IMG/VR virus record: IMGVR_UViG_3300008262_004839
Coordinates: 1-54,557 of that record
DNA: 54,557 nt
Source: a virus
Reading direction: 5' to 3' (one strand)
The notes beneath the pieces are model-generated. The model was not told the DNA's origin. It saw only the letters and a list, made by a program, of their open reading frames with translations, and searched no databases. The first letter of the stretch is position 1. Each line of letters starts with the position of its first letter. Of the stretch, positions 1 to 35,384 are shown one piece after another. A program made the translations under genes and the position numbers.

Positions 1-3000
1 ACTTGTTCCTGAAGAACCTGAAGATCTACTTAAACCTGATGTACCATTTGTTCCTGAAGAACCTGAAGAAGCAGAAGAGCCACTTAATTGTGACAACCCT
101 GAAGCGCCAGCTGTACCTGAAGTACCAGTTGTACCTGAGCTAGCTGAAGAACCAGCAGACCCTGAAGAACCACTTAATTGAGACAACCCTGAAGTACCAG
201 CTGTTCCGCTTGTTGCAGAAGAAGCCGAAGTTCCAGAGGATGCTGAAGCACCTGATACACCCGCAGTACCGTCAGTACCTTTAGAACCACTAGAACCAGA
301 AGTTCCAGAAGTTCCTGAAGTTACACTTAAACCACTATTTGCAGCTAAACCTGAAGTACCAACCGTACCTGAAGTTGCTGAAGACCCTGAAGTTCCAGCT
401 GAGCCACTATTATTACTTGAACCAATTGTACCAGCAGTACCAGTTGAACCTGAAGAACCTGAAGTTCCAGAACTTCTACTTAATGCTGAAGCACCATCTG
501 TACCATTTGTTCCTGAAGACCCAGACGTTCCTGAAGATCCTGAAGATCTACTTAAACCTGAAGTACCATTTGTACCACTTGAACCAGAAGAAGCAGAAGA
601 TCCACTTAATTGTGACAACCCTGAAGCACCTGCTGTACCGCTTGAACCAGAAGTACCTGAAGTTGCTGAAGAACCACTAGAACCAGACAATCTTGATAAA
701 CCTGATGTACCAACTGTTCCTGAGGTGGCTGAAGAACCAGCAGACCCTGAAGAACCACTGTTTGCTGATTGACCACTCGTACCGTTTGTACCAGTTGATC
801 CTGAAGAACCAGAAGTTGCTGAAGAACCCGAGTTGGCACTCAATCCTGAAGTAGCCGCTGAACCTGAACTACCTGAAGTTCCTGAAGTCGCAGATGTACC
901 CGCAGAACCACTTGAACCTGATAATTGAGATAAACCATTTGTACCAGCTGTACCTGTAGTACCAGAAGATGCACTTGTACCTGATGAACCCGCATTTGCA
1001 GATGCACCATTTGTACCATTTGTACCTGTAGACCCACTAGAACCTGAAGTTCCAGCTGAGCCACTATTATTTGAAGAACCTGAGGTTCCAGCTGTACCTG
1101 AAGTTGCTGAAGAACCACTAGAACCTGATGAACCCGCATTTGCAGAAGCACCATTTGTACCATTTGTTCCAGTTGTACCACTTGTTGCCGAAGAACCTGA
1201 GGTTGAACTTAAACCACTATTACCAGCATTACCTGAAGTACCATTTGTACCCGTAGACCCAGACGAACCTGAAGTTCCTGAAGAACCTGAGCTTCTACTT
1301 AAACCTGATTGACCATCTGTACCTGAAGTACCAGTTGAACCAGCTGATCCCGATGTACCTGAAGTATCACTTGTAGCAGACACACCATCCGTACCTGAAG
1401 TACCAGACGTTCCAGCTGTTGCTGAAGAACCAGACAGTCTTGATAAACCGTTTGTACCAGCGGTACCAGTTGTTCCAGAAGAACCACTTGATGCGCTTGA
1501 TCCACTTAATTGTGATAAACCAGAAAGACCCGCAGTACCATTTGTACCAGTAGATCCTGAAGATGCTGAAGTACCGCTTGAACCACTATTTGCCGATTGA
1601 CCACTTGTACCAGCGCTACCTGAAGATGCTGATGATCCTGAAGAACCAGATGTTCCAGAAGTTGCACTTGATCCAGCACTACCTGAAGATCCGCTTAATT
1701 GAGACAATCCTGAGGTTCCAACCGTTCCAGAAGTTGCTGAAGAACCTGATGTAGCGGAGCTACCACTATTCGCACTCGCACCATTAGTACCATTTGTACC
1801 CGTAGAACCTGAAGAACCTGATGTTCCACTTGATCTACTTAATGATGATTGACCATCTGTTCCAGAAGTTCCTGTAGAACCTGAAGAACCACTTGTTCCA
1901 GAAGTATCACTTGTAGCAGACACACCATCTGTACCTGAAGTACCTGATGTACCAGCTGTTGCTGAAGAACCACTTAATCTACCCAATCCTGAAGTACCAG
2001 CGGTACCACTTGTAGCAGATGAACCAGAAGTTGCTGAAGAACCACTATTTGCACTCGCACCCGAAGTTCCATTAGAACCAGTTGAACCTGATGTTCCAGA
2101 AGTTGCTGAAGAACCAGCAGAACCACTTAAACCTGAGGATCCAGCTGTTCCTGAAGTTGCACTAGACCCTGAAGAACCTGAACTACCAGATGAACTACTT
2201 AAAGCTGAAGAACCAACTGTACCAGTAGTACCTGATGTACCACTTGATGCGGATGTTCCTGAAGAACCACTATTTGCAGCTAAACCTGAAGTACCATTTG
2301 TACCAGTTGATCCGCTTGATCCTGAAGAACCTGATGTTCCCGAAGATTTACTTAATGCAGAAGCACCGTCTGTACCAGCTGAACCACTTGATCCTGAAGA
2401 ACCAGAAGTTCCTGAAGTTGCTGATGTTCCCGCTGAACCTGAGCTACCGCTTAACTGAGATAATCCAGATGTACCGACCGTACCTGAGGTCGCTGAAGAA
2501 CCACTTGTAGCTGAACTACCTGAGTTAGCTGAAGCACCATTTGTACCGTTTGAACCAGTCGATCCAGATGAACCTGATGTTCCAGAACTTCTGCTTAAAC
2601 CAGACTGGCCATCCGTACCTGAAGTACCAGTTGAACCACTTGATCCAGATGTACCTGAAGTATCACTTAAAGCAGATTGACCATCCGTACCTGAAGTACC
2701 TGATGTACCAGCCGTTGCTGAAGAACCTGATAATCTACTTAAACCTGAGGTTCCAACCGTACCTGAAGTAGCTGAAGAACCTGAAGTAGCTGAGCTACCA
2801 CTATTCGCTGATTGGCCACTTGTACCAGCAGAACCAGAAGACCCACTTGTACCAGATGTTGCTGAAGAGCCAGCTGAACCCGCACTACCACTTAATTGTG
2901 ATAAACCACTTGTACCAGCTGTACCTGAAGTTGCTGAACTACCAGAAGTAGCTGAAGAACCTGAGTTTGCTGATGCACCGTTTGTACCGTTTGTACCAGT

Positions 3001-6000
3001 TGAACCTGAAGAACCTGAAGTTCCAGAACTTCTACTTAATGCTGAAGCACCATCTGTACCAGAAGAACCTGAACTACCAGAAGAACCTGAAGTTCCACTT
3101 GTAGCCGAAGTACCCGCACTACCTGAAGATCCAGATAATTGAGATAAACCGTTTGTACCAGCGGTTCCTGAAGTAGCGGAGCTACCTGATGTTGCTGAAG
3201 AACCACTATTTGCGCTTAAACCAGATGTACCGTTTGTTCCTGTACTACCTGAAGATGCTGATGTACCAGCCGATCCTGAAGACGCTGATAAACCAGATGA
3301 CCCTGAAGTTCCTGAGGTTGCAGAAGAACCTGCACTACCAGCTGAACCGCTTAACGCTGAACTACCTGATGTTCCAGAAGTTGCTGAAGAACCCGAACTA
3401 CCAGCAGAACCCGAAAGTTGACTTAAACCTGATGTACCAGCTGTTCCTGATGTAGCTGAAGTCCCAGCAGAACCTGAGCTACCACTATTTGCACTTGCAC
3501 CATTTGTACCGTTTGTACCTGTAGACCCACTAGAACCTGATGTACCCGAAGATCTACTCAAAGCAGACGCACCGTCCGTACCATTTGTTCCAGAAGAACC
3601 TGATGTACCCGATGAACCTGAAGATCTACTTAAACCCGATGTACCGTTTGTTCCTGAAGAACCGCTTGATGCACTCGATCCGCTTAATTGTGATAAACCT
3701 GAGTTACCAGCGGTACCTGAAGTACCAGTTGTACCTGAGCTAGCTGAAGAACCAGCAGACCCTGAAGAACCGCTTAATTGTGACAAACCTGATGTACCTG
3801 CGGTACCGCTTGTTGCGGAACTACCAGAAGTTGCTGAAGAACCTGAATTTGCGGATGCACCATTTGTACCGTTTGTACCTGTAGACCCACTAGAACCTGA
3901 TGTACCCGAAGATCTACTCAATGCCGATGCCCCATCAGTACCTGCTGATCCTGAACTACCTGAACTACCTGAAGTTCCAGAAGTTGCTGAAGTTCCAGCC
4001 GATCCTGAAGAACCTGATAATTGAGATAAACCATTTGTACCAGCTGTACCTGAAGTTGCAGAAGAACCACTTGATCCTGAAGATCCAGAGTTTGCAGAAG
4101 CACCAACAGTACCGCTTGTACCACTTGATCCTGAAGAACCTGAAGTTCCAGCAGAACCACTATTATTTGAAGAACCTGAAGTTCCAGTTGTACCAGTTGT
4201 ACCTGAAGAAGCGCTTGTACCAGATGAACCAGAGTTAGCTGAAGCACCATTTGTACCGCTTGTACCAGTTGTACCGCTTGTTGCAGAAGAACCTGAAGTT
4301 GCGCTTAAACCACTATTACCTGCATTACCTGAAGTACCGTTTGTACCAGTTGATCCGCTTGATCCTGAAGAACCAGAAGTTCCTGAAGATTTACTTAATG
4401 CAGAAGCACCGTCTGTACCAGCTGAACCTGAAGATCCACTTGATCCAGATGTACCTGAAGTAGCTGAAGTTCCAGCAGAACCCGATGAACCACTCAATTG
4501 AGACAAACCAGAAGTACCAGCTGTGCCTGAGGTTGCGGATGAACCAGAAGTTGCTGAAGACCCTGAATTTGCGGATGCACCATTTGTACCAGCTGATCCT
4601 GAAGATCCACTTGAACCTGATGTACCACTTGATTTACTTAATGCCGATTGACCATCTGTACCTGATGTACCAGTTGAACCGCTTGAACCAGACGTTCCTG
4701 AAGTATCTGATGTAGCTGATTGTCCATCCGTACCTGAAGTACCAGACGTTCCAGCTGTTGCTGAAGAACCAGACAATCTTGATAAACCTGATGTACCAAC
4801 TGTTCCTGAAGTTGCAGATGAACCTGAAGTTGCTGAAGAACCACTATTTGCTGATTGACCACTTGTACCAGCAGAACCTGAAGATCCTGAAGATCCTGAT
4901 GTACCACTAGTTGCTGAAGAACCAGCGGATCCAGCACTACCGCTTAATTGTGATAAACCACTTGTACCAGCTGTACCTGAAGTAGCGGAAGAACCTGATG
5001 TTGCTGAACTACCAGAGTTTGCAGAAGCACCATTTGTACCCGCAGTTCCAGTTGATCCTGATGAACCAGAGGTACCACTTGATTTACTTAAAGCGGATGC
5101 TCCATCAGTACCAGCCGATCCTGAAGACCCGCTTGATCCAGAAGTTCCTGAAGTTGCTGATGTACCAGCGGATCCACTTGACCCACTCAATTGTGACAAC
5201 CCTGATGTACCAGCGGTTCCTGAGGTAGCTGAACTACCTGAAGTTGCGGATGAACCACTATTTGCGGCTAAACCTGAAGTACCATTAGAACCTGTAGAAC
5301 CAGAAGATGCTGATGTACCAGAAGATGCTGATAATGCACTTAAACCTGAAGAACCTGCGGTTCCTGACGTTGCTGAAGAACCTGAACTACCAGCAGAACT
5401 GCTTAACGCTGAACTACCAGAGGTACCTGTTGTACCACTTGTTGCGGAACTACCGCTTGTCGCAGAAGAACCGCTATTTGCAGCTAAACCTGAAGTACCA
5501 TTTGTACCAGTAGAACCTGAAGATCCACTTGAACCAGATGTACCTGAAGATTTACTTAATGCTGACGCACCATCAGTACCCGCACTACCTGAAGAACCAG
5601 AAGAACCTGATGTTCCTGAAGTCGCAGATGTACCCGCTGAACCAGAAGAACCACTTAATTGAGACAATCCTGATGTACCAACTGTACCTGAAGTTGCGGA
5701 TGAACCAGAAGAAGCTGAAGTTCCTGAAGAAGCTGAAGCCCCACTAGAACCAGCTGAACCAGTTGACCCACTTGTTCCTGAGGTTGCGGATGAACCCGCA
5801 GAACCTGAAGAACCACTATTAGCTGAAGAACCAACTGTACCAGTAGTACCTGATGTACCACTTGATGCGCTTGTTCCTGATGAACCTGAATTTGAACTTA
5901 ATCCTGAAGTACCATTTGTACCTGAAGTTGCTGAAGATCCGCTTGACGCTGATGTCCCTGAAGACGCTGATGCTCCCGAAGAACCGTTAGAACCTGTAGA

Positions 6001-9000
6001 ACCAGAGGTACCACTTGTTGCTGAACTACCAGAAGACGCTGATAAACCAGATGAACCTGCGGTTCCTGAAGTTGCTGAAGATCCTGATGAAGCTGAACTA
6101 CCAGAATTAGCTGATAAACCTGAGGTACCATTTGTACCTGAAGTTGCTGAAGAACCAGCTGTACCACTTGTTGCTGAAGACGCTGAAGCTCCTGATGAAC
6201 CACTTGTTCCTGTAGAACCAGCTGTACCGCTTGTTGCTGAACTACCAGAAGATGCTGACAACCCACTTGAACCAGCTGAGCCAGAAGTTGCGGATGATCC
6301 TGATGTAGCAGAGCTACCACTATTTGCACTCAACCCTGATGTACCATTTGTTCCACTTGTAGCTGAACTACCAGAAGAAGCGGATGTACCTGAAGAAGCT
6401 GAAGCACCTGAAGCACCAGCTGTACCGCTTGAACCAGAGGTACCTGAAGTTGCAGAAGAACCACTTGAAGCACTTAAACCTGAAGAACCAGCTGTACCTG
6501 AAGTAGCGGAGCTACCTGAAGTCGCTGAGGATCCGCTTAATGCGCTTAAACCACTTGTACCATTTGTTCCTGAAGTTGCGGATGAACCAGAAGATGCTGA
6601 TGTACCTGAAGAAGCTGAAGCTCCTGATGACCCTACTGAACCTGAAGAACCTGATGTTCCTGACGTAGCAGAACTACCAGAACTTGCACTCAATCCTGAA
6701 GAACCTGCGGTTCCTGAAGTTGCTGAGGATCCTGATGTGGCAGAGCTACCACTATTTGAAGATAGACCTGACGTACCAGCTGTTCCTGAAGTAGCGGAGC
6801 TACCTGAAGAACCTGATGAACCAGAACTATTACTATTTCCACTCGAACCTGCGGTTCCTGAAGAAGCTGAACTTCCTGAAGAACCCGATGTACCACTAGT
6901 TGCAGATGACCCACTTGTAGCGGATGATCCAGAATTAGCAGCTAAACCTGAAGTACCATTTGTACCTGAAGTTGCTGAAGATCCGCTTGACGCTGATGTC
7001 CCTGAAGATGCGCTTAAACCTGAAGAACCAGCTGATCCAGCTGAACCTGATGTTCCTGACGTAGCAGAACTACCAGAAGATGCGCTTAAACCTGAACTAC
7101 CTGATGTACCGCTTGTAGCAGAGCTACCTGAGGTTGCAGAAGAACCTGAATTAGAACTCAACCCTGATGTACCATTTGTTCCTGAAGTTGCGGATGAACC
7201 AGAAGATGCTGATGTACCTGAAGAAGCTGAAGCTCCTGATGAACCAGCGGAACCACTTGTTCCCGAAGTACCAGAAGATGCTGAACTACCAGAAGATGCA
7301 CTTAAACCTGAAGAACCAGCTGTACCTGAAGTTGCAGAAGAACCAGAGGAAGCTGATGACCCACTATTTGAGGCTAAACCTGAAGTACCATTTGTTCCAC
7401 TTGTAGCTGAACTACCAGAAGAAGCTGATGTACCAGAAGAAGCTGAAGCCCCTGAAGAACCTGATGTACCAGATGATCCTGAAGTAGCGGAAGTTCCTGA
7501 AGAACCCGCTGAACCAGAGCTACCACTATTTGCGGCTAAACCAGAAGTACCATTTGTACCTGAAGTTGCGGAAGAACCAGAAGAAGCTGAAGTTCCTGAA
7601 GAAGCTGATGCTCCCGAAGAACCGTTAGAACCTGTAGAACCAGATGTTCCACTTGTTGCTGAAGATCCAGAAGAAGAACTTAAACCTGAAGAACCAACTG
7701 TTCCTGAGGTTGCGGATGAACCTGATGTTCCTGAAGAACCAGAGTTACTAGATAAACCGCCAGTACCATTTGTACCCGTAGAACCGCTTGAACCAGATGT
7801 TGCTGAAATAGCAGAAATACCATCAGCACCATCAACACCGCTTGAACCAGATGTACCTGAAGAACCCGAAGAACCTGATGTTTTACTTGAACCAGCTAAA
7901 CCGCTTGTACCTGTCGTACCTGAAGTCGCAGATGTACCTGAAGTTGCAGAAGAACCACTATTTGAAGATAATCCTGAAGTACCGTTTGTTCCTGAAGTTG
8001 CTGAAGATCCGCTTGATGCAGATGTTCCTGATGTTGAAGAAACACCGCTTGATCCAGCTGTACCAGAAGTTGCTGAAGAACCTGAGGTTGCTGAACTACC
8101 AGAAGATGCAGATAAACCCGAAGATCCTGATGTACCACTTGTAGCAGAACTACCTGAGGTTGCAGAAGAACCACTATTTGAAGATAAACCCGAAGTACCG
8201 TTTGTTCCTGAAGTTGCAGAAGAACCAGATGATGCAGACGTACCTGAAGTTGCTGAAGCACCTGAAGAACCAGCGCTACCTGTTGATCCTGATGTTCCTG
8301 ATGTAGCACTTGATCCAGCTGAACCAGAAGACGCACTTAAACCAGAAGTACCAACTGTACCAGAAGTTGCTGAAGAACCTGAAGAAGCTGAAGCGCCAGA
8401 ATTACCACCAGTTCCTGAAGTTCCTGAAGAACCACTTGAACCAGATGAGAATGATAATCTACTTTGACCAGCAACACCAGTTGTACCATTTGTACCAGAA
8501 GAACCAGAAGAACCTGAAGTTTCACTTAAACCACTGTTTGAACTAGCACCATTTGTACCGCTAGAACCTGAGGTTGCAGAAGAACCTGAGGTTGCGCTTG
8601 AACCACTATTTGCGGCTAAACCAGAAGTACCGATTGTACCTGAAGTTGCAGACGAACCTGAAGATGCTGCTGAACCTGATGACCCACTTTCACCACTTGA
8701 ACCATTAGAACCTGATGTTCCTGAAGAACCAGCTGTTCCTGAAGAGGCTGAGTCGCCAGAACTTCCTGATGTTCCAGTAGAGCCTGAAGCACCACTTGAA
8801 CCAGATGTTCCAGTAGAACCGTTATCACCAGAAGAACCGTTTGTTCCTGAAGAACCAGAAGCGCCTGATTCACCATTTAAACCATTTATACCTGAAGAAC
8901 CTGAAGATCCAGTTGACCCTGAAGACCCACTTTCACCACTTTCACCTGAAGTACCAAAACTACCACCATCACCAGATGTACCATCGCTACCTGTAGAACC

Positions 9001-12000
9001 AGATTCACCCGATTGACCAGATGTCCCAAATGAGCCATCATTACCCGAAGATCCATCGCTACCTGTAGAACCAGATTCACCACTTATTCCTGAAGTTCCT
9101 GAAGAACCGTTATCACCGCTTGTACCATCCGATCCTGTACTACCACTTTCACCGCTTATTCCTGATGTACCGTTAGAACCTTCGTTTCCTGATGTACCAT
9201 CTGATCCAGTTGAACCTGATTCACCACTTATTCCTGAAGTTCCTGAAGAACCGTTATCACCGCTTGTACCATTTGAACCAGTTGACCCAGAGTCGCCACT
9301 TACACCCGATGTACCATTAGAACCATCATTACCTGATGTACCATCTGAACCAGTTGAACCGCTTTCACCTGATAAACCACTTGTACCGTTAGATCCGTTA
9401 TTACCTGATGTGCCATCACTACCCGTGCTACCACTTTCACCTGATACACCAGAAGTTCCACTTGAACCATTATCACCAGAAGAACCATCTGAACCAGTTG
9501 ATCCCGATTCTCCACTTATACCAGAGGTTCCGTTGGAGCCATCATCACCTGAAGAACCGTTAGTTCCTGAAGAACCTGAAGCTCCGCTTTCACCATTTAA
9601 ACCATTTATACCTGAAGAACCTGAAGATCCAGTTGATCCCGAAGACCCACTTTCGCCAGATTGGCCAGATGTTCCAAATGAACCATCATTACCTGAAGAA
9701 CCATCTGATCCAGAGGATCCAGACTCACCTGATATACCAGATGTTCCAAATGAACCATCATTACCTGAAGATCCATCGCTACCTGTGGAACCAGATTCAC
9801 CCGATTGACCAGATGTACCGTAAGACCCATCAGCCCCACTTGATCCATCTGACCCAGTTGATCCAGACTCACCACTTATTCCCGAAGTCCCTGAAGATCC
9901 GTCATTACCTGATGTGCCATCACTACCAGTTGAACCTGATTCTCCACTTATTCCTGAAGTTCCATTTGAACCATTATCACCGCTACTACCATCACTACCA
10001 GTTGATCCAGACTCACCACTTATTCCTGAAGTCCCATTAGATCCGTCATTACCTGAAGATCCGTCTGAACCAGTTGAACCACTTTCACCTGATTGACCTG
10101 AAGTTCCGTTGGAACCATCGTTACCTGAAGACCCATCTGAACCAGTAGACCCAGATTCACCACTTATACCAGAGGTTCCAAAACTACCGTTAGCTCCTGA
10201 AGAACCGTCTGAACCAGTTGAACCTGATTCACCACTTATACCAGAGGTTCCGTTAGAACCGTTATCACCAGAAGAACCGTTAGTTCCTGAAGAACCTGAA
10301 GCTCCGCTTTCACCATTTAAACCATTTATACCTGAAGAACCTGAAGATCCAGTTGATCCTGAGGATCCCGATTCACCACTTTCACCTGAAGTACCAAAAC
10401 TACCGTCAGCTCCTGAAGAACCATCACTACCCGTGCTACCACTTTCACCTGATTGACCAGATGTTCCTGAAGAACCGTCATTACCTGAAGATCCGTCTGA
10501 ACCTGTGCTACCACTTTCACCACTTATTCCTGAAGTCCCATTTGAGCCATTATCGCCTGATGTACCATCTGAACCAGTTGATCCTGACTCGCCAGATTGG
10601 CCAGAAGTACCAAAAGATCCATCATTACCTGAAGACCCATCTGATCCAGTAGACCCAGATTCACCCGATTGACCAGAGGTTCCAAATGAACCATCATTAC
10701 CTGAAGACCCATCTGAACCTGTGCTACCGCTTTCACCCGATTGACCAGAAGTACCATTTGATCCGTCATTACCTGAAGAACCATTGGATCCGTTTGATCC
10801 CGATTCACCACTTATTCCTGAAGTTCCATCAACACCATCAACACCATCAACACCATTTGTACCAGAAGTACCACTTTCACCTGATGTACCAGATTCACCC
10901 GATGAACCACTTTCACCAGATTGGCCAGATGTACCGTTAGAACCATCCGCTCCTGAAGAACCATCTGAACCAGTAGACCCAGATTCACCACTTATACCAG
11001 AGGTTCCTGAAGAACCGTCATTACCACTACTACCATCACTACCAGTTGAACCAGATTCCCCTGAAGTCCCGTTAACGCCTGTTGTACCAGAATCACCGTC
11101 CGAACCGTTAGTTCCTGAAGAACCTGAAGCTCCGCTTTCACCATTTAAACCATTTATACCTGAAGAACCTGAAGACCCAGTTGATCCTGAAGACCCACTT
11201 TCGCCAGATTCACCTGAAGTTCCATTTGAACCATTATCACCACTACTACCATCACTACCTGTACTACCACTTTCTCCACTTACCCCTGAAGTTCCTGAAG
11301 AACCATCATTACCTGATGATCCATCTGATCCTGTACTACCGCTTTCACCACTTATACCTGAAGTTCCGTTGGAACCATCGTTACCGCTTTCACCTGATGT
11401 ACCATTACTGCCTGATTCACCAGAAATACCTGAAGTACCAAAACTACCATCATTACCACTTGACCCATCTGATCCTGTTGATCCCGATTCACCACTTATA
11501 CCAGAGGTTCCGTTAGAACCACTTTCTCCACTTATTCCTGAAGTTCCTGAAGAACCATCATTACCACTAGATCCGTCAGACCCTGTTGAACCTGATTCAC
11601 CAGAAATACCTGAAGTACCAAAACTACCGTCAGCTCCTGAAGAACCATCTGATCCTGTTGACCCAGATTCACCAGAAATACCAGAAGTTCCATTGGAACC
11701 ATCGGCACCACTTTCACCTGAAGTACCAGTTGACCCTGATTCACCTGAAACACCTGAAGTACCATTAGAACCATCGTTACCGCTTATCCCACTTGTGCCA
11801 TCAACACCATCAACACCATCAATACCATTTGTACCAGAAGTACCAGATTGACCACTCGTACCATCATTTCCTGTGCTACCAGATTCACCTGATATACCTG
11901 ATGTTCCATTTGAACCATCCGCTCCTGAAGAACCATCTGAACCAGTACTACCAGATTCACCACTTACTCCTGAAGTCCCTGAAGATCCGTCATTACCTGA

Positions 12001-12792
12001 TGTGCCATCACTACCAGTTGAACCTGATTCACCACTTATACCAGAGGTTCCGTTGGAACCATCTGCTCCTGAAGAACCGTCAGAGCCAGTTGAACCACTT
12101 TCTCCACTTATTCCTGAAGTTCCTGAAGAACCATCATTACCACTTTCACCTGATGTGCCATTACTACCACTTTCTCCACTTAAACCTGAGGTTCCGTTAC
12201 TACCATCATTACCCGATGTACCATCTGATCCTGTTGACCCAGATTCGCCAGACATCCCCGAAGTTCCGTTGGAGCCATCGGCACCGCTTTCACCTGAAGT
12301 ACCAGTGCTACCTGATTCACCACTTATCCCTGAAGTTCCTGAAGAACCATCATTACCACTACTACCATCACTACCATTACTACCTGATTCTCCAGAAACA
12401 CCAGATGTACCATCAGAACCACTCAAACCCGAATAACCTGAAGTACCAGCTGTACCAGAAGTACCTGTTAATAAAGGTGAATATGAATATTCACCAGTAG
12501 CTGCATTAAACGACACAAAATAGTTCGGTGAACTATTTTCGGTCATTCCTGTAACAAATAACTCATTTAAAATATAAACACCCTTAAGATCTTGGGTGTT
12601 TTCCCACTGTCCAGTGGTATCGTTCCAAACTAAAATGTCCCCTTCATTGGGGCCACTAATTACAACGTCAGATAGATCATCTATTCCAAGATTTTCTATA
12701 ACGTCTTTTATATTTTGGAAGTTAGCATCTAATTCCGCATAGGATAGTGCCCTTCCTAGATCGTCTCTAAGATAAATTGTTACTGTTGCCAT
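1..12792 (-). CDS. Giant collagen-like Gly-X-Y repeat protein (tail fibre candidate), C-terminus outside window
   Basis: The frame is open from ATG at 12792 to the left edge, giving at least 4264 codons without a stop. Residues 1 to about 105 are non-repetitive. They start MATVTIYLRDDLGRAL and include GDILVWNDTTGQW, both of a style common at the N-termini of phage tail proteins. From about residue 108 the protein is Gly-X-Y triplets. The N-terminal part (plus coordinates about 8500-12450) is strict and rich in GES, GTS, GND, GSN and GTD. The distal part (1-8500) is rich in S, T, A and L and often replaces Gly by Ala, Arg or Gln (GLSQLSG, GLSRSSG, SSATSG). Near 7800-7830 it reads GISAISATSG. 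I saw no proline in the triplets. A tail fibre or whisker role is inferred from the repeat type and the N-terminus. The long plus-strand ORFs here are its antisense shadow. Confidence 0.85.
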   Translation of the reverse strand, partial: MATVTIYLRDDLGRALSYAELDANFQNIKDVIENLGIDDLSDVVISGPNEGDILVWNDTTGQWENTQDLKGVYILNELFVTGMTENSSPNYFVSFNAATGEYSYSPLLTGTSGTAGTSGYSGLSGSDGTSGVSGESGSNGSDGSSGNDGSSGTSGISGESGSTGTSGESGADGSNGTSGMSGESGSTGSDGTSGNDGSNGTSGLSGESGSNGTSGESGNDGSSGTSGISGESGSTGSDGSSGADGSNGTSGISGESGSTGSDGTSGNDGSSGTSGVSGESGSTGSDGSSGADGSNGTSGISGESGSTGNDGTSGQSGTSGTNGIDGVDGVDGTSGISGNDGSNGTSGVSGESGSTGTSGESGADGSNGTSGISGESGSTGSDGSSGADGSFGTSGISGESGSTGSDGSSGNDGSSGTSGISGESGSNGTSGISGESGSTGSDGSSGNDGSFGTSGISGESGSNGTSGESGNDGSNGTSGISGESGSTGSDGSSGNDGSSGTSGVSGESGSTGSDGSSGDNGSNGTSGESGESGSSGSTGSSGSSGINGLNGESGASGSSGTNGSDGDSGTTGVNGTSGESGSTGSDGSSGNDGSSGTSGISGESGSTGSDGSSGADGSNGTSGQSGESGSSGESGTSGESGTSGTNGVDGVDGVDGTSGISGESGSNGSNGSSGNDGSNGTSGQSGESGSTGSDGSSGNDGSFGTSGQSGESGSTGSDGSSGNDGSFGTSGQSGESGSTGSDGTSGDNGSNGTSGISGESGSTGSDGSSGNDGSSGTSGQSGESGSTGSDGSSGADGSFGTSGESGESGSSGSTGSSGSSGINGLNGESGASGSSGTNGSSGDNGSNGTSGISGESGSTGSDGSSGANGSFGTSGISGESGSTGSDGSSGNDGSNGTSGQSGESGSTGSDGSSGNDGSNGTSGISGESGSTGSDGSSGDNGSNGTSGISGESGSTGSDGTSGNDGSSGTSGISGESGSTGSDGSSGADGSYGTSGQSGESGSTGSDGSSGNDGSFGTSGISGESGSSGSDGSSGNDGSFGTSGQSGESGSSGSTGSSGSSGINGLNGESGASGSSGTNGSSGDDGSNGTSGISGESGSTGSDGSSGDNGSSGTSGVSGESGSTGSDGTSGNNGSNGTSGLSGESGSTGSDGTSGNDGSNGTSGVSGDSGSTGSNGTSGDNGSSGTSGISGESGSTGSDGTSGNEGSNGTSGISGESGSTGSDGTSGDNGSSGTSGISGESGSTGSDGSSGNDGSFGTSGQSGESGSTGSDGTSGDGGSFGTSGESGESGSSGSTGSSGSSGINGLNGESGASGSSGTNGSSGDNGSTGTSGSSGASGSTGTSGSSGDSASSGTAGSSGTSGSNGSSGESGSSGSAASSGSSATSGTIGTSGLAANSGSSATSGSSATSGSSGTNGASSNSGLSETSGSSGSSGTNGTTGVAGQSRLSFSSGSSGSSGTSGTGGNSGASASSGSSATSGTVGTSGLSASSGSAGSSATSGTSGSTGSAGSSGASATSGTSASSGSSATSGTNGTSGLSSNSGSSATSGSSATSGTSGSSGLSASSGSSATSGSSATSGTAGSSGVSSTSGTSASSGSSATSGTNGTSGLSSNSGSSATSGTSATSGTTGTSGLAGSSKTSGSSGSSGTSGSSGVDGADGISAISATSGSSGSTGTNGTGGLSSNSGSSGTSGSSATSGTVGSSGLSSSSGSSATSGTSGSTGSNGSSGASASSGTSASSGSSATSGTNGTSGLAANSGSSGSAGSSGTSATSGSSGTSGSSGASASSGTSASSGSSATSGTNGTSGLASNSGSSASSGSSATSGTAGSSGLSASSGSSASSGTSGTSGSAGSSGASASSGTSASSGSSATSGTNGTSGLSSNSGSSATSGSSATSGTSGSSGLSASSGSSATSGTSGSAGSAGSSGLSASSGTSASSGSSATSGTNGTSGLAANSGSSATSGSSATSGTSGSSGSSASSGTAGSSGNSNSSGSSGSSGSSATSGTAGTSGLSSNSGSSATSGSSATSGTAGSSGLSASSGSSATSGTSGSSGSVGSSGASASSGTSASSGSSATSGTNGTSGLSALSGSSATSGSSATSGTAGSSGLSASSGSSATSGTSGSSGTAGASGASASSGTSASSGSSATSGTNGTSGLSANSGSSATSGSSATSGSAGSSGLSASSGSSATSGTAGSTGTSGSSGASASSATSGTAGSSATSGTNGTSGLSANSGSSASSGSSATSGTAGSSGLSASSGSSATSGTSGSTGSNGSSGASASSGTSASSGSSATSGTNGTSGLSSNSGSSGTSASSGTSGTTGTVGSSANSGSSGSAGSSATSGTSGSTGSAGSSGASASSGTSASSGSSATSGTVGTSGLSQLSGSSGSAGTSATSGTSGSSGSSGSAGTDGASALSKSSGTSGSSGSSGSTGTNGTSGLAANSGSSATSGSSATSGTTGTSGSSALSSSAGSSGSSATSGTAGSSGLSALSASSGTSASSGSTGSNGTSGLAANSGSSATSGSSATSGTAGTSGLSQLSGSSGSAGTSATSGTSGSSGSSGSAGTDGASALSKSSGTSGSSGSTGTAGTNGASANSGSSATSGSSATSGTAGTSGLSQLSGSAGSAGSSATSGTSGSSGSSGSAGTSGQSANSGSSATSGSSATSGTVGTSGLSRLSGSSATAGTSGTSGTDGQSATSDTSGTSGSSGSTGTSGTDGQSALSKSSGTSGSSGSSGSAGTNGASANSGSSATSGSSATSGTAGTSGLSQLSGSSGSAGTSATSGTSGSSGSSGSAGTDGASALSKSSGTSGSSGSSGSTGTNGTSGNAGNSGLSATSGSSATSGTTGTSGTNGASANSGSSGTSASSGTTGTTGTSGSSNNSGSAGTSGSSGSSGTSGTVGASANSGSSGSSGSSATSGTAGTNGLSQLSGSSGSAGTSATSGTSGSSGSSGSAGTDGASALSRSSGTSGSSGSTGTNGTNGASANSGSSATSGSSATSGTAGTSGLSQLSGSSGSAGSSASSGTTGTSGTAGNSGLSQLSGSSASSGSSGTNGTSGLSRSSGSSGTSGSSGTNGTDGASALSRSSGTSGSSGSTGTNGTNGASANSGSSGSAGTSATSGTAGTSGLSQLSGSAGSSGSSATSGTSGSSALSGSAGSAGSSATSGTSGSSGLSASSGSAGTSASSGSTGTNGTSGLSANSGSSATSGSSATSGTAGTNGLSQLSGSSGSAGTSATSGTSGSSGSSGSSGTDGASALSRSSGTSGSSGSTGTNGTNGASANSGSSATSGSSATSGTAGTSGLSQLSGSAGSAGSSATSGTSGSSGSAGTSGQSANSGSSATSGSSATSGTVGTSGLSRLSGSSATAGTSGTSGTDGQSALSDTSGTSGSSGSTGTSGTDGQSGLSRSSGTSGSSGSTGSNGTNGASANSGSSATSGSSATSGTVGTSGLSQLSGSSGSAGTSATSGTSGSSGSSGSAGTDGASALSKSSGTSGSSGSSGSTGTNGTSGLAANSGSSGTSASSGTSGTTGTVGSSALSSSSGSSGSSGSSATSGTAGSSGLSGSAGSSATSGTSGSTGSNGTSGASANSGSSATSGSSATSGTAGTSGLGRLSGSSATAGTSGTSGTDGVSATSDTSGTSGSSGSTGTSGTDGQSSLSRSSGTSGSSGSTGTNGTNGASANSGSSATSGSSATSGTVGTSGLSQLSGSSGSAGSSATSGTSGSSGSSASSGSAGTSGQSANSGSSGTSASSGSTGTNGTAGLSGLSQLSGSSASSGSSGTTGTAGTNGLSRLSGSSATAGTSGTSGTDGVSATSDTSGTSGSAGSTGTSGTDGQSGLSRSSGSSGTSGSSGSTGTNGTSGNAGNSGLSSTSGSSATSGTTGTNGTNGASANAGSSGSSGSSATSGTAGTSGSSNNSGSAGTSGSSGSTGTNGTNGASANAGSSGTSASSGTTGTAGTNGLSQLSGSSGSAGTSATSGTSGSSGSAATSGLSANSGSSATSGSSGSTGTNGTSGQSANSGSSGSAGSSATSGTVGTSGLSRLSGSSGSSATSGTSGSSGTAGASGLSQLSGSSASSGSSGTNGTSGLSRSSGSSGTSGSSGTNGTDGASALSRSSGTSGSSGSTGTAGTIGSSNNSGSAGTSGSSATSGTVGTSGLAANSGLSVTSGTSGTSGSSGSKGTDGTAGVSGASASSGTSASSATSGTAGTSGLSQLSGSSGSAGSSASSGTTGTSGTAGASGLSQLSGSSASSGSSGTNGTSGLSRSSGSSGTS
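8821..11210. repeat. Long-period direct repeats inside the collagen-like gene
   Basis: A nearly identical block of about 100 bases recurs with its core caccatttaaaccatttata at 8871, 9591, 10311 and 11139. The spacings are 720, 720 and 828 bases, that is 80, 80 and 92 Gly-X-Y triplets. The block encodes GINGLNGESG. A separate block encoding GVDGVDGVDG lies near 10827-10858 and 11799-11820, with a degenerate copy near 7830. The gene therefore seems to have grown by duplication of units of about 720 bases as well as by triplet expansion. Confidence 0.75.
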
Positions 12793-31686: not shown

Positions 31687-33585
31687 TTAGTTTAGTTTTA
31701 TTGTTTTATTTGTTTTAATCTCATTTTGTGTTCTTAAAATACCGTAGTATGTACCAGGTATAACATTAGTTAAATCAACTGGATAAAGATATTTACCTTT
31801 ATACATTTTACCACTAAAAACTGTGTGTACTAATTTGCCGCTCGCATCGTAAAACCCAACGTTTATTTCACCATCTTCTGGTACACTAAAACTAACAAGA
31901 GCTAAACCTTCTGTTGGATTAGGTGACACAATTATTTCACAATCTTTTGTTGTTACAGCACCGCCATTAATTCTGAATATTTTAACAACACCATTTGTTG
32001 GTGTAATTCTCAAATCAGTTGCGTTTGCATCACCAGCATATTTTCTTATAACATATAAAGGGCTATTATTCCAAGTACTTTGTGGTGATAAGGCTGTAAA
32101 TTGTAACGTTAAAACAATATCCCCATCATTAGCCAAATATTCGTTTCTACTCATATCAGCGCCAGCCCACTCAACGATACCATTATTTGGATTTAAAAAT
32201 GACATCCAATTCATAAATTTTTCCTCTGTTTTAATACCTTTAAACTCTAATAAAGAGTTATCATAGGCTAAAGCTAATTGAATTGAACCAACTTGGTCGC
32301 CTTGTGTTAAAACTTTCATTGGTACGTTTAATAAACTACCTTCAGTAATTTCGATTTTAGGTAAATTAATTTCGATTGTAGCGGTTGGAAAATCGTACTC
32401 AACAGTTTCATCGATAATGTATTGAGGTGTCTTACTAGGGTTTAAGATCTCAATAGGAATTGTACGAGCCATATGGAAACCAGTACCGTTTGCATCACCG
32501 CCACCTAATACATAGAATGTTACTGAGTCTGGCTGACCAGCGACAATATCAAATGTTAAGTTAGTTACACCAGCAATAGTTGATGTGTAGTTAGTTGAAG
32601 ACCCGTTAATGGTATTATATTGTGAAACTGTAAAGAATCTAACATCCTGAACAGAGTTTGGCCACACTGAGAATCTACCCGCTAAACGACCATAGATAGC
32701 CGATACGTCAGCGATTGTAATACCGTAAGAACCGTTCACGTCAGAAGCGTAGAAATCAAATCCAGCTGGGGTTTCTTCACCTATAACAAATTTATTAACC
32801 TTTTGTGCATCGGCAACAGATACTGTGTTACCCACAGCCATTGTATCACCTTTAACGTATAAGTGAGCATCCCAATAAGTTGTATCTAAGATTTCATCGA
32901 AGGCAAAATAACCAGTAATGTCAGTTGTATCAAGTTTAACCTGAGTCCAGGCACCCGTTGATGTTTTAGGTCTTTTTTCTAAAGCAATTGTGATATTTTT
33001 AGAGCCAGAACCAGTTACGTTTGTAAATCTACCATGGTATTTTAATCTATTCATTTTGAACTCACCACCATAACTGTGTAAAGATAAGGTTGTATCAATA
33101 CCAGCTATTGTTGACGCATATGAGGGAAACGTTAAAGTACCAGTCACCTTTAAACTATCAATACTAGTTAAAGCTTGGAAAGCGGTTGCAGCTTGGTGAA
33201 AGAATTTGATCTGAAATGCCGCACCGTTAGCGTATGTAAAAGAGTTGTTCGTACCTGTATAAGCTAACGTAACGGTGATGTTACCATTTACCGAATCCGC
33301 AACATATTGCATATACTGATCAGAAGTACTGTACAATAAAGATACGATTGGTTTTGCACCACCAAAAGCCACTTTGTCGTAGAACACACGGAACTGTAAA
33401 CCAGCGATTTTAGTCGTTGTTGTGTTGTCATAGTAAAGGTTAGCTAAAGTGAAACCTTGTGACTGCGGACCAACATTGTAAGAAGAGTCAACGATAACCC
33501 AATTACCACTCGATGGTGCAGTTGTTTGTGCATAGCCCGTAATGGCTAATAACGCCAGCACTAGCGTTAAAAATAAATTTTTCAT
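31687..33585 (-). CDS. Secreted cohesin/dockerin-like protein with type IX secretion sorting domain
   Basis: 632 residues from ATG 33585 (signal peptide MKNLFLTLVLALLAITGYAQ). Two cohesin-like beta domains can be seen: one in the first 180 residues (FRVFYDKVAFGG) and one after IEITEGSLLNVPMKVLTQG. Between them DVNGSYGITIADVSAIYGRL is a dockerin-like calcium loop, and its surroundings match the C-terminus of the lectin protein. The last 75 or so residues (IIVSPNPTEG, VGFYDASGKLV, DLTNVIPGTYYGILRTQNE, IKLN) are a type A type IX sorting domain. This predicts export across the outer membrane by the host type IX system. First gene of the operon. Confidence 0.85.
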   Translation of the reverse strand: MKNLFLTLVLALLAITGYAQTTAPSSGNWVIVDSSYNVGPQSQGFTLANLYYDNTTTTKIAGLQFRVFYDKVAFGGAKPIVSLLYSTSDQYMQYVADSVNGNITVTLAYTGTNNSFTYANGAAFQIKFFHQAATAFQALTSIDSLKVTGTLTFPSYASTIAGIDTTLSLHSYGGEFKMNRLKYHGRFTNVTGSGSKNITIALEKRPKTSTGAWTQVKLDTTDITGYFAFDEILDTTYWDAHLYVKGDTMAVGNTVSVADAQKVNKFVIGEETPAGFDFYASDVNGSYGITIADVSAIYGRLAGRFSVWPNSVQDVRFFTVSQYNTINGSSTNYTSTIAGVTNLTFDIVAGQPDSVTFYVLGGGDANGTGFHMARTIPIEILNPSKTPQYIIDETVEYDFPTATIEINLPKIEITEGSLLNVPMKVLTQGDQVGSIQLALAYDNSLLEFKGIKTEEKFMNWMSFLNPNNGIVEWAGADMSRNEYLANDGDIVLTLQFTALSPQSTWNNSPLYVIRKYAGDANATDLRITPTNGVVKIFRINGGAVTTKDCEIIVSPNPTEGLALVSFSVPEDGEINVGFYDASGKLVHTVFSGKMYKGKYLYPVDLTNVIPGTYYGILRTQNEIKTNKTIKLN

Positions 33586-33605
33586 GTTGTTTTGTTTTGA
33601 TATTA

Positions 33606-33612
33606 ATAAATA
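33606..33612 (-). promoter_or_regulatory. TATTTAT late-promoter candidate for the surface operon
   Basis: CTATTTATTA on the minus strand, 20 bases before the ATG at 33585. No TAnnTTTG element was seen. Confidence 0.45.
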
Positions 33613-33689
33613 GATAAAAATCATAAAAAAACCATTTACTTTAAAAAAAAAAGTATTAAAACGGCCCTAACTTTTACCCGAAACCCTAA

Positions 33690-34024: not shown

Positions 34025-34369
34025 ATGAAAAACTACTAGATTAACAAATTAATCATCGTAACCAGAAAGGACTTAGCACCAGGTTACCAAATTGCTCAAG
34101 CGAGTCACGCTTTAGCGCAATTCATGCTTGACTATCCTGATCAAGCTAATCAATGGAACAATAACTATCTTATCTGTTTGTCCGTTGAAAACGAAAATCA
34201 ATTAAAAACTTTACTGGAAAAGATGTGTATGCATGACATACCCATATCTTATTTTCTCGAACCAGATCTTGGTAACGAGATGACAGCTATTGCTTTTCAA
34301 GGAAGTGAAAAGGCGAGTAAATTAACTTCGTCTATACCATTGGCATTAAAATCTTATAATAAACAATAA
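34025..34369 (+). CDS. Peptidyl-tRNA hydrolase 2 (Pth2)-like protein with in-frame TAG at codon 5
   Basis: ATG at 34025 is followed in the same frame by AAA AAC TAC TAG and then the full protein: INKLIIVTRKDLAPGYQIAQ, ASHALAQF, then LEPDLGNEMTAIAF. This is the Pth2 pattern (TRKDL-PG--AQ--HA, later EPDL---TAIA). With the TAG read as sense the length is 114 codons, usual for the family. No ATG, GTG or TTG lies between the TAG and the conserved core; the next ATG (34124) would delete the active region. Pth2 enzymes release peptides from stalled peptidyl-tRNA. The gene is followed by another TAG-containing gene and by a tRNA array with a CTA suppressor. Confidence 0.8.
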
Positions 34370-34379
34370 ATCAACGATT

Positions 34380-34637
34380 ATGAAGTAGATTACAAAAAAA
34401 CCAGAAGAGATCGTGTTTCACTTTAATAAGAAACATCTCGAAACCCCAACAATCCCCATGTGGGTTGTGAAGTGTCGTGGCGACACCTATTATGTTAACC
34501 ATATTGATGTATCCCCTGGTGTGGGGTTCTCAACAAAGGAAACTCCTGATAACCCTCATACTAAAGGGAGTATAAAATTCAAGGCCAACTTGATGATTGA
34601 GGAACAAAATAACATAATTAACGCTAAAATTTATTAA
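34380..34637 (+). CDS. Conserved phage protein with in-frame TAG at codon 3
   Basis: ATG AAG TAG ATT at 34380, then an open frame to TAA at 34637: ITKKPEEIVFHFNKKHLETP, TIPMWVVKCRGDTYYVNHI, FSTKETPDNPHTKGSIKFK. I have seen this FHFNKKHLE..P.W..K and TKETPDN.HTKGSIK pattern in other phage hypothetical proteins. The conserved part begins only about ten codons after the TAG. A GTG at 34413 could serve as a start but would remove the PEEIV part. Function unknown. Confidence 0.72.
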
Positions 34638-34639
34638 AA

Positions 34640-34984
34640 ATGAAAAACACAAAACACAACCCAACAATGATGATTAAATCAGCTTTCTCAAATAAACTTC
34701 ACAAAATACTAGGTGAATGCATCGAACACAAACGCTATTCAAGAGAATGGTATGATTGTAAAAGAGTAAAAACCAAATTGACTGATGAGGATAAAATTAA
34801 ACTTTTTGATGAGATCAAAACCATCTATGAAGAAACTTCTCAAGAACTGAGAAATTATTTTCAGGATAGAAATCTTAAGAAAAGAGTTGAAAAAGAACGA
34901 GTTAAGAGAGGTTATACCCCAAAAAAGAAGACAAAAAAAGAGGATTATGAAAAAAATCTTCAAGAAAATTTGGATAGTAAATAA
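34640..34984 (+). CDS. Basic helical protein before the tRNA array (114 aa)
   Basis: MKNTKHNPTMMIKSAFSNKL, long helices and a Lys/Arg-rich C-terminus (KKRVEKERVKRG, PKKKTKKEDYEK). RNA or DNA binding is plausible from charge alone. No family recognised. The tRNA-array promoter begins inside its last codons. Confidence 0.65.
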   Translation: MKNTKHNPTMMIKSAFSNKLHKILGECIEHKRYSREWYDCKRVKTKLTDEDKIKLFDEIKTIYEETSQELRNYFQDRNLKKRVEKERVKRGYTPKKKTKKEDYEKNLQENLDSK

Positions 34985-35000
34985 ATTTGTCCTAGTTTTG
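34969..35000 (+). promoter_or_regulatory. Host-type promoter for the tRNA array
   Basis: TTTG (34969-34972), 20 bases, TAGTTTTG (34993-35000). The expected RNA start is followed at once by a 6-bp hairpin (35009-35014 with 35020-35025). Confidence 0.7.
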
Positions 35001-35029
35001 TAGTCCAGTTGAGTTAAAGACTCAATGGA

Positions 35030-35169
35030 TGTTGTGTGACGAAATTGGTATACGTGCTGGTCAGTACCCAAAAGAGTGTAGAATGGGGGAAACTGGTGGA
35101 CATACTACAGACACGAGTAGTAGGAGATTAGGTCTTTAAATCCATGTGGGTTCGAATCCCACCACAACA
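35030..35169 (+). tRNA. Aberrant 140-nt tRNA-like gene (Leu-like ends, interrupted middle)
   Basis: The ends form a 7-bp acceptor stem (TGTTGTG with CACAACA), with a perfect T arm (GTGGG-TTCGAAT-CCCAC) and a Leu-style D arm (ACG-AAATTGGTATA-CGT). Between the D and T arms lie 80-90 bases instead of about 35-45. The insert holds a second D-arm-like stretch (GGAAACTGGTGGACA), a TACTAC/GTAGTA hairpin with an eight-base loop lacking T33, and a possible variable arm. I cannot assign an anticodon. It may be an intron-bearing, recombined or decayed tRNA. Confidence 0.5.
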
Positions 35170-35174
35170 GCGCA

Positions 35175-35227
35175 CCAACATAAGGTTGGAACCTCAAGGC
35201 TACGTAGAGGATAATGGTTAACGTAGC
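35175..35227 (+). ncRNA. Candidate folded RNA with pseudoknot between tRNAs
   Basis: A 5-bp hairpin (35175-35179 with 35185-35189) is followed by a perfect 7-bp pairing (35199-35205 with 35221-35227). This crosses CCTC/GAGG (35192-35195 with 35207-35210) or AACC/GGTT. The crossing order is that of an H-type pseudoknot. It ends four bases before tRNA-Cys. Confidence 0.35.
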
Positions 35228-35231
35228 AAAT

Positions 35232-35302
35232 GGTTGGATGACCGAGAGAATAGGTAAAAATCCGCAAGATTTTTTACGGTGGTTTGAATCCATCTCCAAC
35301 CT
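35232..35302 (+). tRNA. tRNA-Cys: tRNA-Cys (anticodon GCA), C33 variant
   Basis: Acceptor GGTTGGA/TCCAACC with U73, as expected for Cys. D stem ACC/GGT, anticodon arm AAAAT-CCGCAAG-ATTTT, T arm GGTGG-TTTGAAT-CCATC. Position 33 is C instead of the near-universal U. Confidence 0.8.
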
Positions 35303-35309
35303 CTAAAAT

Positions 35310-35384
35310 GGCTCTATGGTGTAGCGGCAACATAGGAGACTCTAAATCTCACAGTCACGGGTTCGAACCCCGTTAGGGCCACCA
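35310..35384 (+). tRNA. tRNA-Sup: Amber suppressor tRNA (anticodon CTA), CCA encoded
   Basis: Acceptor GGCTCTA/TAGGGCC, discriminator A at 35381 and CCA at 35382-35384. D arm GTG-TAGCGGCAA-CAT. Anticodon arm GGAGA-CTCTAAA-TCTCA, so T33 and anticodon CTA (35342-35344), which reads UAG. T arm ACGGG-TTCGAAC-CCCGT. The fold is complete apart from one G-A pair at the base of the anticodon stem. The amino acid it carries cannot be told from sequence. Two genes upstream (34025, 34380) have TAG near their starts. Confidence 0.88.

Follow-up and report, generated by a model that had tools for sequence, protein, structure and literature searches.

In-frame stop codons at the start of phage PTH2 and P0002 genes, very probably read by the phages' own suppressor tRNAs

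The virus record IMGVR_UViG_3300008262_004839 of IMG/VR, which was analysed whole (54,557 bases; hereafter the window), contains two adjoining plus-strand genes, one for a PTH2-family peptidyl-tRNA hydrolase and one for a small protein that we call P0002, each with an in-frame TAG in its first codons and both upstream of a tRNA gene with the anticodon CTA. Comparison with their relatives indicates that this arrangement is very probably a stop-codon gate worked by the phage's own suppressor tRNA: the phage carries the tRNA, the same stop lies early in PTH2, in a fused HD-PTH2 gene or in P0002, and elsewhere the stop keeps its normal meaning. An earlier note on this DNA had proposed amber-gated genes read by a neighbouring suppressor tRNA, and this is strongly supported by the conservation of the stop, the linkage of the tRNA, the ordinary use of TAG elsewhere and a swap to TGA and TCA in one phage. 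The positions it gave for both TAGs and for the anticodon were found again when the sequence was reread. The features concerned are the following.

34025..34369, + strand: PTH2-family peptidyl-tRNA hydrolase gene, TAG-gated (MKNY(TAG)INKLIIVTRKDL...); PF01981 match and gated homologues
34037..34039, + strand: amber gate of the PTH2 gene, codon 5
34380..34637, + strand: P0002 gene, TAG-gated (MK(TAG)ITKKPEEIVFHFNKK...), for an 85-aa protein predicted to be all-beta; gated homologues and AlphaFold2 model
34386..34388, + strand: amber gate of P0002, codon 3
35310..35384, + strand: putative amber suppressor tRNA, anticodon CTA at 35342-35344, loop CTCTAAA; ARAGORN and RF00005

The PTH2 gene begins ATG AAA AAC TAC TAG ATT and the P0002 gene ATG AAG TAG ATT. 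Read across its stop, the window PTH2 has 114 residues and matches PF01981 with an E value of 3.8e-6 and 27.5 bits, above the gathering score of 23; the earlier note had given this gene no name. The first in-frame ATG, GTG or TTG after the stop comes 29 codons on in PTH2, a stretch that reaches into the conserved core, and 9 codons on in P0002. Both ARAGORN and RF00005 (58.9 bits) recognise a tRNA fold with a CTA anticodon downstream, and the window tRNAs closest to it are Trp(cca), Gln(ttg) and Lys(ttt), at low scores. A scan of the window for an ATG, a TAG within 10 codons and then at least 60 open codons, outside mapped genes, returned three places, namely PTH2, P0002 and one opposite a giant gene at 1-12792; TAG also occurs in the open frame 5' of the start in three other window genes, in none of them with an ATG ahead of it. 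Among the 48 genes with a visible end, 42 end in TAA, four in TGA and two in TAG (19804 and 51669), in agreement with the earlier note; this tally was drawn from a hand-picked list of 49 standard-code open reading frames (ORFs), so that internal stops are excluded by construction.

The anatomy of the gate, its conservation, the match between stop and anticodon, their linkage and the ordinary use of TAG elsewhere can be read directly from the sequences. For P0002, homologues were collected by a viral-contig search (69 loci) and two alignment-based searches (the best 80 of 375 and the best 80 of 366 relatives). Among the 231 loci parsed, 219 gave the motif and formed 103 clusters at 95% identity; the 12 motif-less loci (L097-L099, L114, L115, L072, L074-L077, and those of the phages Phosso and Atu_ph07) were left out. 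Eighty-five of the 103 clusters are gated by TAG: 83 have an early TAG, L070 has the TAG as a single inserted codon inside P0002, and in L057 no ATG precedes the early TAG. Seventeen clusters are ungated and one (L069) is ambiguous. The TAG lies within a few codons of the start in most of the first 69 loci and, counted from the nearest upstream ATG, is codon 3 in 59 of the 83 early-TAG clusters (range 2-10). The codon that follows is ATT in 66 of these 83, with AAT, CCC and GTT among the others. In Phosso and Atu_ph07, P0002 forms part of a longer protein and is ungated.

In many loci PTH2 is the gene directly 5' of P0002 and has an early TAG of its own, and many further PTH2 loci lack the P0002 motif. 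The viral-contig search for PTH2 (best 80 of 158 relatives, 79 of the 80 loci parsed, L018 left out) used a pattern built from gated members and thus describes one subfamily rather than all PTH2; within it, 63 of the 64 distinct loci have a gated PTH2, and the 64th is cut by a contig end. The residues R, D, Q and H are invariant in the core of 15 aligned gated PTH2 proteins. A gated PTH2 is also present in 15 of the 18 P0002 clusters without a clear P0002 gate, the exceptions being L062, L073 and L054. Divergent gated PTH2 genes resembling those of the phages ME3 and GAP32 occur in L069 (MS(TAG)IAEDKNIVYTFVREDL, with a second in-frame TAG further on) and L147 (ML(TAG)INEDKNYVYSFIRTDL). In five loci (L457, L461, L464, L472 and L473) an HD-type gene with an early TAG lies just 5' of PTH2; its gate is less certain because an ATG follows 6-7 codons past the TAG, and the HD-type genes are a possible third gated family. 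The gated gene differs between phages, being PTH2, an HD-PTH2 fusion and/or P0002. Two canonical phage PTH2 genes, that of phiM12 and that at 174048-174452 of XacN1, are ungated, and a search of plasmids with the PTH2 query returned none. Homologues as distant as about 50% identity for P0002 and about 40% for PTH2 still have the TAG, and the same early TAG is present in the complete genome of the phage RHph_I1_18. Because of this recurrence the gate is not a product of chance or of sequencing error, the latter being a possibility that the earlier note had named as its own refutation.

A CTA tRNA is present on the contig in 81 of the 85 gated P0002 clusters. In 69 of the 85 it was found by ARAGORN within the locus and in 12 more by a covariance model or elsewhere on the contig; three of these 12 are less certain, two for an odd loop (L128, L133) and one because it is cut (L288). 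ARAGORN misses several phage CTA tRNAs that the covariance model, built from CTA tRNAs, detects (L025, L035, L053, L068, L309, L323 and others). Where ARAGORN gave a hit, whether or not P0002 is gated, the tRNA is on the strand of the gene in 81 of 81 clusters, at a median distance of 431 bases and no more than 1,000 bases away in 65 of them. Of the PTH2 loci, 58 were tested after duplicates and loci covered before had been left out, and 51 have a CTA tRNA, not counting L482, in which the loop reads TCT. In one relative (G007; 160,000 of 171,839 bases searched) the sole ARAGORN tRNA is a CTA tRNA about 0.4 kb from the gated P0002; in another with an ungated P0002 (G009), ARAGORN found one tRNA in all 139,590 bases, not CTA, and the sole covariance-model match is a CAT tRNA. 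The bodies of the CTA tRNAs are very varied (69 distinct sequences) and their nearest neighbours are mixed, so that they point to no single amino acid as the one charged.

Gated genes are found in the cultured phages RHph_I1_18, XacN1, RAS14, ME3 and GAP32, of which the last four had not been used in forming the idea of a gate. RHph_I1_18 has an unannotated gated P0002 followed by a CTA tRNA no more than 30 bases 3' of it. XacN1 has a second, divergent PTH2 (PF01981, 27.2 bits), which is the C-terminal part of an HD-PTH2 fusion (L515:5735-6592) starting ATG AAA TAG, with the gate at codon 3 and a Shine-Dalgarno sequence ahead of that ATG; two tandem CTA tRNAs lie about 208 kb from it in the record. 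Two CUA tRNAs are described in the excerpted report on this phage, whose authors sought suppressor targets and, by that account, found none (PMC5852040). With the XacN1 fusion as query, 35 records were returned, and in each of the three that were fetched (RAS14, ME3 and GAP32) the gate is codon 3 or 4. The HD-type part is fused to PTH2 in RAS14 as in XacN1, and in ME3 a CTA tRNA lies 0.4 kb 5' of the gated gene. Two of three uncultured phage records have both the gate and a CTA tRNA; the third, LR745206, is gated, with no CTA tRNA in 8.3 kb. In the mycobacteriophages Myrna, Phabba, ScoobyDoobyDoo, I3 and StephanieG (L494, L496-L499), PTH2 starts with RTG-TAG-GTG, which is suggestive of a gate or a start-stop element at codon 2; a CTA tRNA is near PTH2 in four of the five, by annotation or ARAGORN, and Phabba has a tRNA of undetermined type. 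The Sinorhizobium phage phiM12 (KF381361, L495), with its ungated PTH2, has an ochre tRNA with a TTA anticodon (L500:1501-1576), and no CTA tRNA was found in six loci checked of its eight tRNA matches.

In one pair of phages, stop and anticodon were also found to change together. The jumbo phages Phosso and Atu_ph07, both with named hosts, have PTH2 cores that are 72% identical, and in both the annotated start falls inside the conserved core. In frame upstream of it, Phosso reads MKY(TAG)VEEKLRV and has CTA tRNAs; Atu_ph07 reads MIGEHF(TGA)INYEEL and has a TCA tRNA, which the part of the literature seen describes as an opal suppressor (PMC6102473). Why the identity of the stop should track the anticodon would be difficult to understand if the tRNA did not read the stop.

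Outside the gated genes TAG terminates ordinary ORFs. Ten relatives were scanned in pieces, whole or nearly so (in several records up to a few kilobases from the end), for greedy non-overlapping ORFs of at least 60 aa. About 5-27% of these ORFs, whose counts are inflated by small spurious ones, end in TAG: 25 of 250 in RHph_I1_18, 87 of 645 in Phosso, and 8 of 165, 10 of 182, 52 of 420, 20 of 161, 49 of 264, 22 of 167, 65 of 241 and 30 of 166 in G001, G002, G006, G007, G008, G009, G012 and G019, respectively. The view of the earlier note that TAG is not fully reassigned is right; across the scanned relatives TAG serves as an ordinary terminator. Wherever a gated PTH2 or P0002 that begins with ATG is present, the scans recover it, and when homologues were required, PTH2 and P0002 were the early-TAG families that recurred and lacked a normal start close by. 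Two other early-TAG ORFs were noted, one of 406 codons in G007 (L224:4129-5358, MI(TAG)NSNREYESRDDV...) and one just after a second CTA tRNA in a 482-kb record (G003, L179:14370-14867, MKK(TAG)INIRGPDEMFLKEEQ...). Further gated genes beyond PTH2 and P0002 are possible.

From these data we infer that the phage tRNA is charged and decodes the gate. The phage would encode a suppressor tRNA, mostly with the anticodon CTA and once with TCA, and one or two genes, PTH2 or the HD-PTH2 fusion and/or P0002, would carry the same stop in their first codons, so that the full-length protein would need both the transcript and a charged suppressor tRNA able to outcompete the release factor at the gate codon; outside the gated genes the stop would keep its normal meaning. 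Suppressor-dependent translation of the gated genes is strongly supported by the comparison of sequences.

Several observations weigh against this interpretation, the clearest being one gate for which no tRNA was found and two tRNAs for which no gate was found. The former is a gated genome of 188,369 bases (G008, locus L071), in which neither ARAGORN (on 180,000 bases) nor a search of the whole for the anticodon-arm pattern gave a CTA tRNA; the latter are G018 (L054), where a CTA tRNA and an ungated P0002 lie 157 bases apart and no gene was recognised as gated, and L007, where the neighbour of a CTA tRNA is a PTH2 that is ungated. No CTA tRNA was found with the gated P0002 on contigs of 11-14 kb in L267, L297 and L058, with the gated PTH2 in the stretch examined of L443, L449, L451, L452, L469, L482, L069, L026 and LR745206, or in the 3-4 kb examined of RAS14 and GAP32. 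L074 and L075, which are outside the clusters, have a gated P0002 that appears frameshifted and no CTA tRNA. A single weak candidate, TTCTAAT, came from the arm pattern in the ungated G009; neither ARAGORN nor the covariance model supports it. The annotated start of the mycobacteriophage PTH2 is the GTG after the stop, and a start there is possible. The genome scans also list other candidate early-TAG ORFs, most of them with a start codon 7-40 codons later. Finally, an A after a stop codon is expected for efficient suppression, and the base 3' of the P0002 gate is A in 79 of 83 clusters versus 50 of 191 ordinary TAG stops, but the next residue is mostly Ile, all codons of which begin with A; owing to this confounding, the A was dropped as proof of a suppression-friendly context.

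The alternative that survives best shares the gate and differs in the signal sensed. If the gate reported weakness of release factor 1 (RF1), PTH2 and P0002 would be made when termination fails, much as the frameshift autoregulation of release factor 2 (RF2) and the control of ArfA by transfer-messenger RNA act as comparable sensors. The anatomy would be identical, and one gated product belongs to the PTH2 family of peptidyl-tRNA hydrolases, which act on failed translation. A pure RF1 sensor would, however, need no dedicated suppressor tRNA, and the gate of Atu_ph07 is TGA, which is read by RF2; we consider such a sensor unlikely, although a serious competitor.

Considerably less probable is a leader, untranslated or of start-stop type, that contains the stop, with initiation after it at AUU or a later start and a short ORF that only attenuates. 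The Shine-Dalgarno spacing of the mycobacteriophage genes suits the GTG after the stop, and the later in-frame starts of the window P0002 and of the HD-type genes would also suit a leader. Against this, codons other than ATT also follow the gate, stop identity tracks the anticodon in Phosso and Atu_ph07, and by eye the Shine-Dalgarno sequence fits the ATG before the stop in L041, L061, RAS14 and XacN1. Because of its placement in these four cases, and because the window PTH2 has no nearby later start, initiation at the pre-stop ATG is favoured.

An early step of, or a relic from, genome-wide reassignment of TAG (code 15) is very improbable. CTA tRNAs do accompany code-15 phages, as far as the excerpted source goes (PMC13037316), but TAG terminates many ordinary ORFs in the genomes scanned, which contradicts reassignment there; among early-TAG ORFs with homologues, PTH2 and P0002 are those that recur and lack a normal start close by; and the gate is kept across very different phages and is thus not transient. 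Nor does the window, with its two gated genes, fit TAG = Gln, although with two TAG stops TAG is a rare terminator there. Reassignment was accordingly rejected. The idea that the stop encodes a special, pyrrolysine-like residue needed by the protein can be dismissed as hardly credible, since the Pyl label that ARAGORN gives the CTA tRNAs means the anticodon CTA only and the gate varies in position (codons 2-10, an inserted codon in L070), in gene and in codon identity (TGA in Atu_ph07), although no search aimed at pyrrolysine genes was made.

As to what a gate read by the phage tRNA would be for, the earlier note had suggested a timing switch, and Borges et al. in 2022 reportedly proposed that stop recoding times lytic genes. 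Timing is one possible purpose; leak suppression, RF1 sensing and rescue matched to demand are at least as likely as delay. Timing is not favoured over these because in the window and most relatives the tRNA is a close neighbour on the same strand and could be co-transcribed; it fits better in XacN1, where the tRNAs are far from the gene. A suppressor tRNA would make ribosomes overrun UAG stops, leading to more peptidyl-tRNA drop-off, and a peptidyl-tRNA hydrolase made through the same readthrough would match rescue to need. Our best guess at the purpose, a tentative one, is a leak-proof feed-forward loop by which more readthrough of stop codons would bring more of the rescue enzyme. A nonsense codon, a cognate tRNA and same-strand linkage are present, with the distance of about 208 kb in XacN1 as a departure, and co-transcription is putative. 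It is conceivable, with similar caution, that we are dealing with a new kind of translational circuit in nature, an AND gate composed of a stop and a private suppressor tRNA, on a ribosome-rescue enzyme made in proportion to stop overrun, in which the tRNA may disturb host termination, the enzyme would serve the self-protection of the phage, and stop and anticodon can switch together from TAG/CTA to TGA/TCA.

P0002 is modelled by AlphaFold2 as a small all-beta fold (mean pLDDT, the predicted local distance difference test, 92.4). The window protein has no Pfam or PHROG match, and its alignment gave nothing convincing against Pfam, PHROGs or PDB sequences (best Pfam E value 0.0073, in one of 38 members). 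In 84,980 bacterial and archaeal genomes, 84 pattern hits yielded no confirmed relative. The model has no clear relative in the PDB (Foldseek, best E value 0.46; VIA-align, best Z 3.9 with a root-mean-square deviation of 4.5 over 56 aligned residues) and only weak matches among viral models, the best (E value 1.8e-4) to a phage protein labelled DUF2061. Some weak structural matches are to CusF, RuvA, RPA and NusA, which we take to be oligonucleotide/oligosaccharide-binding (OB) fold proteins; membership in that fold is not claimed. Elsewhere in the window, a tRNA-like composite recognised by eye at 35034-35170, in which a single acceptor stem and a single T-arm enclose two stretches resembling D-arms, is possibly a recombined or interrupted tRNA; neither ARAGORN nor Rfam at the gathering threshold made a call there. 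On the minus strand, 31687-33624 encodes a protein of 645 aa in which a cohesin domain is combined with a Por secretion C-terminal sorting tail scoring below threshold; this is unusual in a phage and, we presume, points to a Bacteroidota host. On the same strand, 1-12792 is a single open frame of at least 4,264 codons that runs off the record.

An early stop in a tRNA-recycling gene or its neighbour, together with a matching tRNA in many large phages, suggests an explanation for suppressor tRNAs under the ordinary code. Such tRNAs in standard-code phages are a puzzle, and candidate targets now exist in genes for which annotation overlooks or cuts off the start, a sign that conserved phage genes can be lost or shortened by gene callers; as cultured phages are among the carriers, the idea is testable now. 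If true, it would link stop-codon suppression to ribosome rescue. No publication on a stop-gated PTH2 or on this gate was found by title or abstract in open-access PMC, preprints apart. In the excerpted sources, orphan CTA tRNAs with no confirmed target are reported from the non-recoded phages XacN1 (PMC5852040), RsoM2USA (PMC8504454), zeta crAss-like phages (PMC12386605) and AP-J-162 (PMC11242549), and for XacN1 the gate supplies a candidate target. The 2025 paper on zeta crAss-like phages asks, in the part seen, why non-recoded phages keep amber suppressor tRNAs (PMC12386605), and the gate is a candidate answer.

Among known systems, PTH2 (PF01981) is the sequence family common to the gated gene, from which the gated form differs by the stop and sometimes by an HD-type fusion or neighbour. 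The recoded code-15 phages (crAss-like, jumbo and others) likewise have a phage CTA tRNA that reads in-frame TAG, and regulation by stop recoding has been proposed for them, according to the excerpts (PMC12386605, PMC13037316, PMC10879173); there TAG occurs in many genes, whereas the gated phages use TAG as an ordinary stop and have their homologue-supported gates in one or two small genes, near the start. The closest likeness in logic is the synthetic suppressor-tRNA feed-forward "leak dampener" of Ho et al. (PMC7969014), which, as described in the part seen, also combines a nonsense codon in the regulated gene with a suppressor tRNA for AND logic and low leak. That circuit was engineered in E. 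coli, whereas the phage gate is natural, phage-borne and placed on a peptidyl-tRNA hydrolase or P0002; if the interpretation given here is true, it would be the natural counterpart of a circuit that synthetic biologists had to build.

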